Of a stretch of DNA of 64,000 nt, positions 18,180 through 64,000 are shown piece after piece (position 1 is the first letter of the stretch; each line of letters opens with the position of its first letter). The stretch comes from Veillonella parvula DSM 2008 (GTDB taxonomy: Bacteria > Bacillota > Negativicutes > Veillonellales > Veillonellaceae), in the NCBI RefSeq assembly GCF_000024945.1, contig NC_013520.1:1761001-1825000 (forward strand). Reading direction: 5' to 3'. Below the pieces are notes generated by a model. That model had not been told where the DNA came from, did not search any database, and saw nothing but the letters and a program-made list of their open reading frames with translations. A program made the translations under genes and the position numbers.

Positions 18180-18362
18180 AAGCACGGTATATGCATACCA
18201 TGCCTTTAGAGCAGGCTTTCTGACTCTGATTCATCGCAACATTTCGGCCTTCCCAGTTTCCCAGTGACCCTATAATGAAACCTTGCTCCTCATTACAGCT
18301 ATTTGCATAGTATGGGTTTTTCACCCATTTTCCTCTTTTACGCTCGGTAAATACCGACACTC
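18180..18362 (-). promoter_or_regulatory. Cobalamin (B12) riboswitch upstream of the nik-like operon
   Basis: Minus-strand sequence shows the conserved cobalamin aptamer blocks in order: AGGAAAATGGGTGAAAA, the AGCTGTAATGAGGAG segment (the conserved GC-TG-AA part of the core), GGTCACTGGGAA, CTGGGAAGGCC (B12-box partner), GATGAATC, and AGTCAGAAAGCCTGC, closed by an outer stem. A terminator hairpin with T7 follows at 18154-18173. High cobalamin should therefore switch the operon off. A 60-residue ORF read across this segment is spurious. Confidence 0.93.
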
Positions 18363-18390
18363 ACTAGTTCATTCATTTTTATCGATTATA

Positions 18391-57840: not shown

Positions 57841-59028
57841 ATGACTCAAGAAAGTTCTGCTAAGGTCTCTTTCATCTTAGTAGTATTCCTTGGTCTGTTG
57901 ACAGCCATCACACCACTTGCAACAGATTTATATTTACCAGCATTACCAATTATGCCTAGTGAACTAAATACATCTGCATCAAATATTCAAATGACCATTG
58001 GTGTGATGACTTTTGGTGTTGCATTAGGTCAATTATTTGGAGGTCCTATTAGTGATACTATGGGCCGCAAGTTGCCTCTTATAACAGGCAACTTACTTTG
58101 CGTTATCTCTAGCATAATCTGTGCTTATGCACCAAGCATTGAAATACTTTTACTAGGACGCTTTCTACAAGGTTTAACAGGATCTGTGGGCGTTGTAATT
58201 GCTAAGGCCATCGCTCGAGATTTTGCATTTGGTCAAGAATTGACTAAACTCTTTGCATTGCTCATGATGGTTAACGGTTTGGCGCCAGTAATCGCTCCGC
58301 TCATCGGCGGTCAATTATTACTATTCACTACATGGCGCGTTATCTTCGTTATTTTAGCAATATTTTCTGCTATTCTATTAGTGGGATCTCTTCTCTTCCG
58401 TGAAAGCTTACCTAAAGAAAAACGCGTTACAGGTGGCGTTGCAACTGCTACAAAGAACTACATTACACTTATTAAAGATAAGCGATTCCTTGGGCAAACA
58501 CTAATCCAATTCTTTGCTTTTGGTGGATTCTTTGCGTATATCTCAGGTTCATCCTTTGTATACCAAAACATCTTCCAACTATCTGCACAAGAATTTAGCT
58601 ATCTCTTTGGTATCAATAGCTGTGGTATTATTTTAGCTAGTGCCATAAGCGCTAGATTAAGTAATGTAATCACAGTTCGACAATTACTAACATTTGCCCT
58701 CTGGCAACTAACAATCGGATCCTTGCTATTCTTAATAGCTATGCTTTTCGAATGGCCACTTATTCCTGTAACGGCCATTCTATTCTTTACCGTATGTACA
58801 GTATCCCTATTTGGCTCTGCCTCTTTCTCTATGGCAATGGCTAAATACGGTAAAATGGCTGGCAGTGCCTCTGCAGTACTTGGCTTTGCTAGCATGTTCT
58901 CTGCAGGAATCGTATCTCCATTAGTTGGTATTGGTGGGGAATATACGGGGATCCCCATGGGGATTACAATGCTAGTATGTGCAGCGCTTTCCTTATTGTG
59001 CCTATATAGGTTAGTTGAGAAAGAATAG
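57841..59028 (+). CDS. Bcr/CflA-family multidrug efflux MFS transporter
   Basis: 395 residues with 12 membrane segments. The Bcr/CflA signature TPLATDLYLPALPIM (near 22-36) and motif A GGPISDTMGRKLPL (near 66-79) are present, with a second conserved GRFLQGLTGSVGVV around residue 105. It would export drugs or metabolites such as bicyclomycin or chloramphenicol by proton antiport; substrate unknown. ATG follows GGAGGG. A leader ORF and hairpin precede it, and the repeat cluster starts 52 bases after it. Confidence 0.9.
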   Translation: MTQESSAKVSFILVVFLGLLTAITPLATDLYLPALPIMPSELNTSASNIQMTIGVMTFGVALGQLFGGPISDTMGRKLPLITGNLLCVISSIICAYAPSIEILLLGRFLQGLTGSVGVVIAKAIARDFAFGQELTKLFALLMMVNGLAPVIAPLIGGQLLLFTTWRVIFVILAIFSAILLVGSLLFRESLPKEKRVTGGVATATKNYITLIKDKRFLGQTLIQFFAFGGFFAYISGSSFVYQNIFQLSAQEFSYLFGINSCGIILASAISARLSNVITVRQLLTFALWQLTIGSLLFLIAMLFEWPLIPVTAILFFTVCTVSLFGSASFSMAMAKYGKMAGSASAVLGFASMFSAGIVSPLVGIGGEYTGIPMGITMLVCAALSLLCLYRLVEKE

Positions 59029-59080
59029 TGCCAGTCTTATTACAATAGTTAATACAGTATTATAGCATTTGTATGTCTAA

Positions 59081-59233
59081 GTCGTAATGGGGCCCCGTTA
59101 CAATAGAATAAATTTAGTATAAAAACAGCACCACCTTCTTCTTGCTCAGTACGTCACTACGTTCCGTAAAATCGCTGCGAAAAAGGTGGTGCTATTTTTA
59201 TTAACCTTTGCTATGAAAAAGTCCCATTACGAC
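59081..59233. repeat. Nested palindromic element 1 of the repeat cluster
   Basis: Outer inverted arms GTCGTAATGGG (59081-59091) and CCCATTACGAC (59223-59233), 11-bp perfect. Inner arms AGCACCACCTT and AAGGTGGTGCT enclose a 35-nt loop core (reading GCTCAGTACGTC... to ...ATCGCTGC, about 59144-59178) and are followed by T-rich sequence, so the inner part doubles as the terminator of the drug exporter gene. The core recurs inverted in the elements at 59726 and 59945. Confidence 0.8.
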
Positions 59234-59369
59234 GTAATAGCATCAGCAAAAATGTTTAAAGATATGTATTATACATTTTAATATCAACTTAGCACTATTC
59301 TTTCTATCTACGCCAATATACATAAACACAATAACGGAAAGCGCCTGCTCAACTGTTTGTAGGGAAAAG

Positions 59370-59390
59370 AGATGTGGCACAGCCACATCT
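59370..59390. terminator. Small GC-containing hairpin in the repeat cluster
   Basis: AGATGTGGC and GCCACATCT form a 9-bp perfect stem with a 3-nt loop. No strong T-tract follows. It sits between element 1 and the tandem units. Confidence 0.4.
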
Positions 59391-59415
59391 CCTCGCTCCG
59401 ACCATCCTCTGCCCA

Positions 59416-59725
59416 GTTACATTTTCAATGGGACATCTTCATAACCAGTGTATATAGAAAAGAATACAGCCCTCTTCCTCCCATTTCCATTAGGTGTATT
59501 GCTAATTTTTTGTAAATAATGAGCTATAAGACTCGATGGAGCTCTTAGGTATATAGTAGATTAGATTATTTACATTTTATAATGGGACATCTTCATAATT
59601 AGCGTATATAGAAAAGAACACAGCCCTCTCTCCTCTTTTTCCGTTGGATGTATTGCGAATTTTTTTGTGAATAATGAGATAAAAAAAACGATGGAGCTAT
59701 TAGATATACAGTAGATTGAATCATT
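59416..59725. repeat. Two tandem 155-bp truncated repeat units
   Basis: The units begin ATGGGACATCTTCAT at 59428 and 59582, with a third start at 59737 (periods 154 and 155). Each unit carries the left half of the palindromic element (TATATAGAAAAGAA-ACAGCCCTC) followed by an 80-base tail (TGTATTGC-AATTTTTT and later GATGGAGCT..TTAG.TATA) that the full elements lack. No ORF was seen. Confidence 0.75.
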
Positions 59726-59889
59726 TACATTTTATAATGGGACATCTTCATAATTAGCGTATATAGAAAAGAATACAGCCCTCTCTGCAGCGATTTTACG
59801 GAACGTAGTGACGTACTGAGCCAAGAGAGGGCTGTATTTTTTCTATACTAATAATATGCAGTTATCATCTGACCCCATTATAAAATGTA
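59726..59889. repeat. Full-length nested palindromic element 2
   Basis: Outer arms TACATTTTATAATGGG (59726-59741) and CCCATTATAAAATGTA (59874-59889), 16-bp perfect. Inner arms ATACAGCCCTCTCT and AGAGAGGGCTGTAT enclose the conserved loop core GCAGCGATTTTACGG...ACTGAGC, then a T6 tract. Length 164 bp. Confidence 0.85.
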
Positions 59890-59944
59890 AGAGACCTTAT
59901 CGCTTATTCACTAAATTCCATCCCAACTCCTCCCCACTGCACTA

Positions 59945-60110
59945 GTTATATTTTCAATGGGACAGCTTCATAACAGGTGTATATAGAAAAGAACACAGCC
60001 CTCTCTGCAGCGATTTTACGAAGCGTAGCGCCGTACTGAGCCAAAAGAGGGCTGTGTTTTTTCTATACTAGTGTTATGTAGTTGTCACGGGGCCCCATTG
60101 AAAATATAAC
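59945..60110. repeat. Full-length nested palindromic element 3
   Basis: Outer arms GTTATATTTTCAATGGG (59945-59961) and CCCATTGAAAATATAAC (60094-60110), 17-bp perfect but different in outer sequence from element 2. Inner arms ACACAGCCCTCT and AGAGGGCTGTGT enclose a diverged copy of the loop core. Its inner hairpin is a likely terminator for the dehydratase-like gene as well. Length 166 bp. Confidence 0.85.
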
Positions 60111-60119
60111 AGAGCACCC

Positions 60120-63100
60120 TTATTCAAACATTGTCGATAGTAGTAGTTTCAATCGGTTTGCTTGGTTAACCGCACTGGATCCTGGATCGTAGTCGATAGC
60201 CGCAATTCGCACGTCTGGGTAGGCTGCGGATAGTGTTTTCACCATGCCTTTACCTGTTACGTGGTTTGGTAAACAGCCAAATGGTTGTAAGCATACAATT
60301 TGCTTAGCTCCTTTTTCGATAAGGTCAATCATATCTCCTGTGAGGAACCAGCCTTCACCACATTGATTACCAAGTCCGATGAATTGGGCTGCTTCTTTTG
60401 CTACTTCTGTCATACGTTGTAGCGGGTCAAAGTGTTTTGACGCTGCTACGGCTTTTGCATATGGCAAGCGGTAGAGCTCAAGGGCTTCACGAGCCAATGT
60501 ACCAAAGAAGCCAGATAGCCATGTACCATCAAGGTGCTTAGCACGGTATGTGCTATCCATTGCACAATACAAGAAGAAATCTAGCAAGCCAGATGTAACG
60601 ACTTCGCCGCCTTCCTTTTCGATAAGCTCATTAATATGATTGTTAGCACTTGGATGGAATTTAACGTAAATTTCCCCTACGACACCAACACGAGGTTTTT
60701 GTACATCTTTATTAATTGGCAAGTTATCAAAATCATGGATGATTTCTTTGATGTACTTATTATATTGTCGAAGACTGGCAGATGTAATATTATCACGTAA
60801 TTTTTTAATCCAATAATCACATAGTGCATCGGTAGAACCAGGATTTGTCTCGTATGGCCGTGTAGCAAGAACACATTGCATGAGCGCATCACCGTATACA
60901 ACAGCTTGAATCATACGATGTAAGAAACCTTTTGTCAACTTAAAGCCTGGTTGGCGTTCCATATCACTCGCATTAAGAGATAGAATAGGTACTTGTTTCA
61001 TACCAGCATCAATCAATGCTTTACGTAAGTAACCGATGTAGTTTGTAGCACGACAACCACCACCAGTTTGAGAGATGATAACAGCCGTCTTATCTACATC
61101 ATATTTACCGGATAACAGTGCAGACATGAGCTGCCCTACAACGATAATCGCTGGGTAACATGCATCGTTATTAATGTATTTTAAACCCACTTCGATATCG
61201 TCACGCGTAGGCGCTGGCAAAATTTCAAAGTCATATCCTTCATTTTTGAGAACTGGCTCTAAGAGGCTAAAATGCAATGGTGACATTTGTGGTACCAAGA
61301 TTTTATAAGTCTTACGCATTTCTTCTGTGAAGACAACGCGATTGTAATCGTAAGTTGGTAATTTCTCTACCACTACTTCTTCCGGCGCCTCAGGATTATG
61401 ATGACGACGCAAGCTACGTTCCATTACAGATTGCAAGGAACGTAAACGGATTGTCACGGCTCCAAGGTTTGTACCTTCATCGATTTTGAGCAAGGTATGG
61501 ATTTTGTGATTTGCTGAAAGTATATCTTTTACCTGATCTGCTACGATGGAATCAAGGCCACAACCAAAGGAGTTAAGCTCTACAATTTGGAATCCTTCAG
61601 TTCTACTTACAAATTCAGCGGCACGATATAGGCGACTATGGTAGGACCATTGGTCTACAACACGTAAATGCTTGATTTCATTGCCTAATGGTGCAACGCC
61701 ATCTTCTGTAAGAACAGCCATACCAAGAGATGTGATAAGTTCAGGAATACCGTGGTTAATACCGGAGTCCAAATGATATGGACGGCCAGCCAATACGATT
61801 GTCGGAATTTGTTCTGCCACGAGGCGAGACACAGTTTTCTTTGTCGTTTCACGGTAAGACGCTTTACAGTTTTCCTGCTCTTCCCAAGCGATGTCTACAG
61901 CCTTAGCAATATCCTTCTTCTTTAAGTTTAAAAAATCCAATGCTTTCACAAGGGCCGGAACAAGAGATTTTTTATCAGCTAGCGGCAAAAATGGTGCGTG
62001 GAACGGAGTATCGCCCAATACCTCTTGCATATTATTTTTGATAAGTTCTGGATAGGAAATAACCATTGGACAATGGTAATTATTGTCGCGGCTAAATTCC
62101 TTAGGGCCGTGTTGAATACAAGGGTACCAAATAAAGTCTACCTGTGCATTCGCTAAGTCTCGAATATGACCATGTACAGCTTTTGCAGGATAGCAAGCCG
62201 TATCGGATGGAATTGTATCGATAGCCTTATTGTATTGAGCCTTAGTCGTATAATCTGAAAGAATTACTTCATAGCCCAAGGTATTAAAGAATGTAAACCA
62301 GAACGGGAAATCCTCGTACATGTTGAGAACGCGAGGAATACCTACGCGCATTTTACCTTCAAACTCTGGAATATTTTTCTTTAAATAATAGTCGAAATAA
62401 CGACGTAATTTTACATCTACCAAGTTAGGAACTGGTTTACGTTCCTCTTGAATCATACCGCCTGCACCGCGGTCACAACGGTTGCCCGTTACGTACGTAC
62501 GACCATCAGAGAAAGCATTGATAGTAAGCATACAGTTGTTGGAGCAAAGGCCACAATTGCGCATTGTCGTAGACACCTGTAAGGAATTAAGTCCTTCACT
62601 ATCGAGCAATGTACTTTCACCCTTTTGTAACTCTTCCGCCGTTTCCGCTGCAAGAAGAGCCATACCGTATGCACCCATCAAGCCAGATACATCAGGGCGA
62701 ATTACTTCGACGCCCATCAATTTCTCAAAGGCACGCAAAACAGATTCGTTATAGAACGTACCACCTTGTACAACGATATGATCGCCTAATTCTTTAGGGT
62801 CTTTCACCTTAAGAACCTTATAAAGGGCATTTTTAATTACAGAATACGCAAGACCTGCCGCGATATCTTGTACCGTAGCACCTTCTTTTTGAGCCTGCTT
62901 AACCTTAGAGTTCATAAATACAGTACAACGAGATCCTAAGTCGATTGGCATAGGTGCCAATAATCCTTCTTTTGCGAATTGATCGATAGGAATGCGTAGA
63001 CCAGATGCAAATGTATCAATAAAAGAGCCGCAACCAGAGGAGCAAGCTTCGTTCAACACGATATCTTCGATGTACCCATCACGAACCTTACAGCATTTCA

Positions 63101-64000
63101 TATCTTGACCGCCAATATCCAAAATAAAGGATACATCAGGGCAGAAGAATCGGGCCGCACGATAGTGAGCCATCGTTTCTACTTCACCAATATCGATGCC
63201 GAGGGCGCGTTTAAGAAAGGCCTCACCGTAGCCAGTTACGCCAGAGTGTGCAATATAGGCGCCTTTTGGCAATAATTCATATATTTTCTCGATGATTTCA
63301 CGAGATTTTTCTAACGGTTTACCATGGTTAGGACCATAGTGAGAGAAGATAATTTCCTTGTTCCTATTGATAAGAACTACCTTAAGAGTAGTAGAGCCAG
63401 CATCAATACCAAGGTAACAAGGACCTTGAGCATCCTCGATATTCGCCTTTGGCGTTACCGCCTTAGCGTGACGAGCTCGGAACTCTTCTAATTCTTGTTC
63501 ATTTTTAAACAGCGGATCCACACGGTCTGTAGCTTCCATAGGAATACCAATAAGTGCACCGATTTCCTTTGTCAATTGACCAACCGTAATCTCACGGCAC
63601 TCATCTTTCATCAATGCCGCCCCTAAAGCGATGAATAATTCACCATTTTCAGGGATAATGCGATGCGCTTCATCTAGCTCTAAGGTATCACAGAAGCATT
63701 GGCGTAATTCAGACAAGAATGTCAACGGACCGCCAAGGAACGCTACATTACCTTCGATTTTATGACCGCATGCAAGGCCAGCAATCGTTTGATTTACAAT
63801 TGCTTGGAATACAGATTTTGCAATATTTTCATGAGATGCACCTTGGTTTAACAAAGCTTGTACGTCTGTTTTAGCAAATACGCCACAGCGTGCCGCAATT
63901 GGATAAATCGTATCAGCATTCATGGCTAATTGGTTAAGGCCAGATGCATCTGTCTGCAATAAGGTCGCCATTTGGTCAATAAAAGCGCCCGTACCACCAG
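60120..64000 (-). CDS. Giant 2-hydroxyacyl-CoA dehydratase/activase-related protein, 5' end outside window
   Basis: The frame is open to the right edge (visible 1293 residues); the Met at 63971 is internal, since GGTGAFIDQMATLL is read across it. The visible N-terminus is the end of a first BcrA/BadF-type ATPase domain. A second complete one follows (YLGIDAGSTTLKVVLIN about 155-171 of the visible part, then NEACSSGCGSFID with the [4Fe-4S] cysteines), then a DUF2229 and HgdB-like region with conserved Cys, and a C-terminal CoA-dehydratase-like segment. Such fusions resemble the activator plus dehydratase subunits of 2-hydroxyglutaryl-CoA dehydratase in one polypeptide. The real substrate is unknown. 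Confidence 0.85.
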   Translation of the reverse strand, partial: GGTGAFIDQMATLLQTDASGLNQLAMNADTIYPIAARCGVFAKTDVQALLNQGASHENIAKSVFQAIVNQTIAGLACGHKIEGNVAFLGGPLTFLSELRQCFCDTLELDEAHRIIPENGELFIALGAALMKDECREITVGQLTKEIGALIGIPMEATDRVDPLFKNEQELEEFRARHAKAVTPKANIEDAQGPCYLGIDAGSTTLKVVLINRNKEIIFSHYGPNHGKPLEKSREIIEKIYELLPKGAYIAHSGVTGYGEAFLKRALGIDIGEVETMAHYRAARFFCPDVSFILDIGGQDMKCCKVRDGYIEDIVLNEACSSGCGSFIDTFASGLRIPIDQFAKEGLLAPMPIDLGSRCTVFMNSKVKQAQKEGATVQDIAAGLAYSVIKNALYKVLKVKDPKELGDHIVVQGGTFYNESVLRAFEKLMGVEVIRPDVSGLMGAYGMALLAAETAEELQKGESTLLDSEGLNSLQVSTTMRNCGLCSNNCMLTINAFSDGRTYVTGNRCDRGAGGMIQEERKPVPNLVDVKLRRYFDYYLKKNIPEFEGKMRVGIPRVLNMYEDFPFWFTFFNTLGYEVILSDYTTKAQYNKAIDTIPSDTACYPAKAVHGHIRDLANAQVDFIWYPCIQHGPKEFSRDNNYHCPMVISYPELIKNNMQEVLGDTPFHAPFLPLADKKSLVPALVKALDFLNLKKKDIAKAVDIAWEEQENCKASYRETTKKTVSRLVAEQIPTIVLAGRPYHLDSGINHGIPELITSLGMAVLTEDGVAPLGNEIKHLRVVDQWSYHSRLYRAAEFVSRTEGFQIVELNSFGCGLDSIVADQVKDILSANHKIHTLLKIDEGTNLGAVTIRLRSLQSVMERSLRRHHNPEAPEEVVVEKLPTYDYNRVVFTEEMRKTYKILVPQMSPLHFSLLEPVLKNEGYDFEILPAPTRDDIEVGLKYINNDACYPAIIVVGQLMSALLSGKYDVDKTAVIISQTGGGCRATNYIGYLRKALIDAGMKQVPILSLNASDMERQPGFKLTKGFLHRMIQAVVYGDALMQCVLATRPYETNPGSTDALCDYWIKKLRDNITSASLRQYNKYIKEIIHDFDNLPINKDVQKPRVGVVGEIYVKFHPSANNHINELIEKEGGEVVTSGLLDFFLYCAMDSTYRAKHLDGTWLSGFFGTLAREALELYRLPYAKAVAASKHFDPLQRMTEVAKEAAQFIGLGNQCGEGWFLTGDMIDLIEKGAKQIVCLQPFGCLPNHVTGKGMVKTLSAAYPDVRIAAIDYDPGSSAVNQANRLKLLLSTMFE

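Follow-up and report, generated by a model that had tools for sequence, protein, structure and literature searches.

The intergenic region between the MFS and activase-like genes

Within the window, that is, the whole 64,000-nucleotide stretch of Veillonella parvula DSM 2008 DNA that was analysed, a gene for an MFS transporter and a gene for a protein resembling 2-hydroxyacyl-CoA dehydratases and activases converge on a gap of 1.1 kb that is filled by three palindromic elements (Table 1). Elements 2 and 3 share one orientation and element 1 has the other; the activase-like gene ends about 10 nt from element 3. A preliminary description had placed the palindromes at 59081-59233 (GTCGTAATGGGG...CCCATTACGAC), 59726-59889 (TACATTTTATAATGGG/CCCATTATAAAATGTA) and 59945-60110 (GTTATATTTTCAATGGG/CCCATTGAAAATATAAC), with the inner arms ATACAG/CTGTAT, ACACAG/CTGTGT and AGCACCACCTT/AAGGTGGTGCT; on re-reading, positions and arms were as described, and both outer and inner arms are complementary within each of the three copies. 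The palindrome of element 1 also reaches outward, by the arms P0 and P0', into the MFS gene. Two half-elements lie in the same gap, with a 126-nt tandem duplication (59506-59631/59661-59786); in genomes G005 and G010 element 2 is enclosed in an additional outer palindrome made of the duplicated sequence.

Table 1. Features of the locus, in coordinates of the window.
Feature	Coordinates	Strand	Remarks
MFS (Bcr/CflA-like) transporter gene	57841..59028	+	ORF; contributes its last ~55 nt to P0 of element 1
Element 1, left outer arm P0	58974..59060	+	End of MFS coding sequence, stop codon and 3' flank; inverted alignment
Element 1, P1 left arm GTCGTA and core ATGGGGC	59081..59093	+
Element 1, P3 left arm	59119..59141	+	A-tract and variable stem
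Element 1, conserved tip TTGCTCAGTAC...GTAAAATCGCTGC	59142..59178	+
Element 1, P3 right arm	59179..59201	+	T-tract at its end, terminator-like
Element 1, core GTCCCAT and P1 right arm TACGAC	59221..59233	+
Element 1, right outer arm P0'	59262..59354	+	Inverted copy of the end of the MFS gene, degraded
Separate 10-bp hairpin GAGATGTGGC/GCCACATCTC	59369..59391		Middle of the gap
Half-element remnant	59416..59476	-	3' half in sense orientation
Second half-element remnant	59570..59631	-	Within the 126-nt tandem duplication
Element 2, complete	59725..59890	-	P1 59725-59736/59879-59890; P3 59768-59786/59824-59842; tip 59787-59823
Element 3, complete	59945..60110	-	P1 59945-59956/60099-60110; P3 59988-60006/60044-60062; tip 60007-60043
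2-hydroxyacyl-CoA dehydratase/activase-like gene	60120..63971	-	ORF, 1283 aa; convergent with the MFS gene

Synteny of the MFS and activase-like genes is kept in 13 of 14 Veillonella genomes. Nine genomes carry elements in the MFS gap, where the inner stems are wholly different and the outer arms are conserved or separately matched. Elsewhere in the window, a cobalamin riboswitch at 18193-18380 (minus strand) is the sole Rfam match at gathering score.

A dispersed family in Veillonella

Nucleotide searches with the window elements matched this locus only, because the stems are unique to each copy and too variable for BLAST. The single-locus element that this result suggested was ruled out by a base-plus-gap pattern, ATGGGGYCC-N(103-133)-TCCCAT, which revealed a family with 10 matches in this genome and 67 in the genus; the reversed pattern, used as control, gave none. 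Strict copies were catalogued to a total of 66, in 10 genomes. A covariance model built from 26 diverse copies found 15-23 matches per genome in nine close Veillonella species, a few of them being the same place on the opposite strand. Matches were fewer or weaker in G001, G002, G003 and G013, and G007 had none, so the family occurs in 13 of the 14 Veillonella species searched. Weaker matches to this model were found in two sister genera, and a second model, of stem and tip, matched 21 of 250 Negativicutes genomes, nearly all of Veillonella or of the sister genus g4.

The preliminary description could name no known family, and Rfam 15 likewise gave no match at gathering score over the elements, and otherwise only matches at chance level. 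Phage records (50,697) and plasmid records (72,556) contained no match. The base pattern alone had at least 80 matches listed in viral contigs, at pattern level only; among 80 viral contigs with a match to the tip pattern, the model recognized no real copy. A literature search that covered a minority of subscription journals found no published description, and the hairpin family of Veillonella is apparently undescribed.

Anatomy and covariation

From the outside inward, an element consists of an outer helix unique to each locus (P0), an unpaired stretch of about 8-10 nt, the helix P1, a less paired region, the stem P3, and a tip. P1 joins 6-12 locus-unique base pairs to an invariant base, ATGGGGC/GTCCCAT, which carries an invariant G.U pair and is constant as ATGGGG(C/T)/TCCCAT across 26 copies. 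P3 is a near-perfect stem with a mean of about 21 pairs, starting with an A-tract and ending with a T-tract; the arrangement AAAAA...TTTTT surrounds it in nearly all distinct copies, giving the stem and T-tract of a terminator in both directions. The tip, the part common to both genera, is asymmetric, its conserved strands UUGCUCC and AAGUCGCU flanking a small variable hairpin, P4.

P3 and P1 differ between loci at almost every pair. In the alignment of 26 copies, both sides had changed in 23 of 32 pairs, with a covariation score of 0.545 against 0.135 +/- 0.014 for shuffled alignments and at most 0.16 for slid partners; helices covarying above both controls are what is looked for in a structured RNA. 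An alignment of the tip stem had changes on both sides in 19 of 20 pairs, and each of the two conserved closing G-C pairs of the tip has undergone compensatory change. The covariation of arms first noticed in the three window copies therefore extends to the whole genus, and it withstood a search for non-covarying copies because the arms of the other genomic copies covary as well.

Pairing without a strand signature

Covarying arms had been read in the preliminary description as the mark of a folded RNA or of insertion into pre-existing palindromes. Selection on the sense RNA would predict more G.U than A.C among imperfect pairs, and a strand test was applied. On the presumed sense strand, the non-Watson-Crick pairs of P3 comprised 7 G.T and 30 A.C (about 7 and 12 when counted once per locus), and those of P1 comprised 0 and 6, respectively. 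The covariation stands, but its reading as folded RNA is not supported by this test, which showed no excess of G.U over A.C. Selection on the sense RNA alone is not supported, and therefore structure at the DNA level, or pairing in the RNAs of both strands, fits better.

Between orthologs, the unpaired region next to the stems changes about five times as fast as the stems do. Among 672 comparisons of P3 pairs, 9 showed a double change and 11 a single one, counts that leave out four groups with register slips. Judging from these comparisons, pairing is constrained without a strand signature, which fits both a bidirectional terminator, where both RNAs need the stem, and repair at the DNA level by template switching. 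If P3 terminates sense transcripts, the right arms lie outside the RNA and their conservation would need a reason at the DNA level or in antisense RNA.

Outer arms as inverted copies of gene ends

Each locus has its own outermost arms because the sequence to the right of the element repeats, inverted and degraded, the sequence to its left. This was found at 17 of 19 loci, with scores of 22-58 against a mean of 15.4 and a 99th percentile of 22 for mismatched loci. Identity between the flanks was 86% at 1-10 nt from the base, 57% at 11-20 nt and 73% at 21-40 nt, with controls at about 50%. Since the left flank is usually the 3' end of the adjacent gene, the right flank must be the copy. In the sister genus, inverted flank copies occur likewise at malic enzyme and other genes, the p values there being conservative because orthologous loci are among the controls. 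At hydE and dnaB, the inverted copy is present only in genomes with a complete element.

The clearest case is element 1, whose P0 and P0' gave a local inverted alignment score of 58, with a maximum of 24 for mismatched-locus controls. Among 41 gene ends tested in the window, only that of the MFS gene has a downstream inverted self-copy (score 48, next 24). The rod thus formed (58964-59350) is predicted to fold as a single hairpin of about 390 nt at -127 kcal/mol, including about 55 nt of coding sequence, and it is conserved in nine species. In the sister species G004 and G009, an Ala/Val codon difference in the MFS gene is matched in the non-coding right arm. The coding ends did not match their own arms systematically better than those of other species, therefore coevolution of the outer arms is not general; a general cross-species coevolution of coding end and right arm was rejected, none being seen beyond the G004/G009 example. 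Element 3 had no outer arm beyond P1 in the flank alignment.

Two variants of element 1 were observed at the MFS locus. The G010 copy is a natural recombinant with left and right outer arms from different haplotypes, which leaves P1 unpaired and weakens the predicted fold (-90 kcal/mol, whereas the folds of the other eight species lie between -104 and -157 kcal/mol). The G004 copy has lost the whole inner hairpin and kept the outer arms, apparently through deletion between short direct repeats.

Polarity and turnover

An element turns its left side to a gene edge close by, in most cases a stop codon at a distance of 9-66 nt. Most elements lie in sense orientation just past a stop codon; a minority occur upstream of promoters (bioD, locus B and the divergent 1299381 locus), some of them in antisense (bioD, locus B). 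The 41 adjacent pairs, from only about eight independent loci, comprised 25 in the arrangement +-, 8 each in ++ and --, and none in the divergent arrangement -+.

Several comparisons point to turnover; the gene names used for these loci were read from the translated sequences and not taken from family searches. Partial losses were seen at hydE in G011, where only the left arm is left, and at dnaB in G008, which has no right arm. The same inner type occurs at dnaB and hcp, swapped between genomes, 3'-half remnants lie downstream of complete copies of another type, and elements are nested inside older copies (locus B in G008 and G011). For these nested copies the earlier suggestion of insertion into pre-existing palindromes holds, but a pre-existing palindrome at empty sites was rejected, as the element-free orthologous sites of hydE and dnaB have none. 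The flanks beside the core are inverted and no direct repeats were seen there. The 7-bp ATGGGRC ends are fixed, yet homology between loci sometimes extends further out (dnaB/hcp), and the true outer boundary of the element may lie beyond them.

Two further loci may be mentioned. The gap between the genes for carbonic anhydrase and bioD in G010 (G010:C15:36064-36671) contains three elements, two of them forward and one in reverse. Of the forward copies, the second is a hybrid with a broken stem, because its left and right stem halves come from different types. Downstream of hydE, G000 and G008 carry an element, and G012 has an apparent DNA cytosine methyltransferase gene shortly past the stop codon.

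Possible origin and maintenance of the elements

The explanation that best accommodates these observations, and which has about an even chance of being correct, is a family of gene-edge hairpins resembling bidirectional terminators, with arms that fold-back template switching would produce and mend, and with copies that disperse and become nested. P3 may serve as an intrinsic terminator in both directions and insulate neighbouring genes from each other. During replication through the hairpin, the new strand could fold back and use its own freshly synthesized upstream part as template, an intrastrand template switch that would produce locus-specific inverted arms and keep the inner arms perfectly paired. 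Template switching is described as creating and repairing hairpins, with perfect stems and multibase compensatory changes arising in one event (PMC8794818). Pairing near the tip would also be held by selection, outer layers would decay, and recombination or transposition would carry copies to gene edges and into older copies. Gene-end copying, structure, family membership and polarity are read from the sequences themselves; from them we infer termination, template switching and the mode of spread, the mobility of copies being suggested by comparison of loci. The outer arms have a helix-loop-helix profile at similar spacing in unrelated loci, which looks more like a selected structure than the plain decay of one copying event. 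A more specific proposal, fold-back capture, is that a conserved polar DNA hairpin which arrives at a gene, or persists next to one, surrounds itself with an inverted copy of the end of that gene and maintains it; this we hold tentatively, as somewhat less probable than not.

A family of structured RNAs, acting as 3'-UTR elements or small RNAs of Veillonellaceae, in which the internal loop of the tip (UUGCUCC/AAGUCGCU) binds a protein or ligand and the stems vary compensatorily, would account for the strong covariation, the tip shared by two genera, the prevalence of sense copies just past stop codons, the invariant G.U pair of the base and the slow change of ortholog stems. It is nevertheless unlikely, given that G.U is not in excess over A.C, that paired arms stand on both sides of the terminator-like T-tract, that some copies are antisense upstream of promoters, and that Rfam has no match. 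A similarly low probability is assigned to non-autonomous mobile DNA, of MITE-like or single-stranded hairpin type, in which a putative enzyme acting in trans recognizes tip and core and insertion itself yields the inverted flank copy. The moving enzyme is hypothetical, the phage and plasmid records hold no match, the stems lack the conservation between copies that is expected of a transposon end, direct target duplications were not seen beside the core, and many loci are old and syntenic; in its favour are the fixed short ends ATGGGGC/GTCCCAT, the fixed polarity, the presence or absence of copies among close species, and the inner types shared by unrelated genes, with their swaps, remnants and nested insertions.

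That these are ordinary bidirectional terminators of convergent genes, locally duplicated and nothing more, is very improbable. The A- and T-tracts and perfect stem of P3 are like those of other hairpins in the window (e.g. 2306-2342), and the first locus does sit between convergent genes, but the base and tip conserved at many unrelated loci in two genera largely refute this reading. Against it are also the nested P1 and P0 arms outside the T-tract, the copies upstream of promoters, and the absence of inverted gene-end copies from the other 40 window genes tested.

When long perfect stems differ completely from copy to copy, this is usually taken as proof of selection on RNA; here such stems accompany inverted copies of host gene ends, a fixed polarity and no G.U signature. 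This combination opens the question of how template switching creates and maintains hairpins to testing, in a human commensal that can be cultured and offers many natural replicates. If fold-back capture is true, the copies build locus-specific arms that can reach into coding sequence and may even carry amino-acid changes with them. Veillonella gains a likely class of unannotated terminators or insulators, together with two models for annotation.

Comparison with known systems

Intrinsic (Rho-independent) bidirectional terminators share with the Veillonella elements a perfect stem between A- and T-tracts and a position after stop codons and between convergent genes. The Veillonella elements differ in their large tip (about 35 nt) with a conserved asymmetric internal loop, in nested outer arms that lie beyond the T-tract and copy the gene end, and in a base sequence kept at unrelated loci.

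The ERIC, BOX, Correia, RUP and REP/BIME repeats and MITEs are short, dispersed, intergenic palindromes with conserved stem sequence, whose copies nest and decay. In all but the conserved stem the Veillonella elements are similar: every locus has stems and arms of its own, and what stays constant is limited to base and tip. Nor was a direct target duplication seen beside their core.

The attC sites of integrons carry a GTT/AAC crossover box, which is lacking in the Veillonella base ATGGGGC/GTCCCAT. Furthermore, the Veillonella elements apparently form no cassette array and lie at core syntenic host genes. They resemble attC (e.g. PMC2727003) in being folded sites set by structure more than by sequence, with variable stems and asymmetric unpaired bases, placed after a gene in fixed orientation.

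Hairpins that arise from quasipalindromes by template switching (PMC8794818, PMC8604942, PMC7202029) are like the present ones in that reverse-complement copying creates or perfects the arms, also within coding sequence. Those hairpins are single mutation events that can occur anywhere, whereas in Veillonella the centre is occupied time after time by a conserved element whose polarity toward gene edges is fixed.
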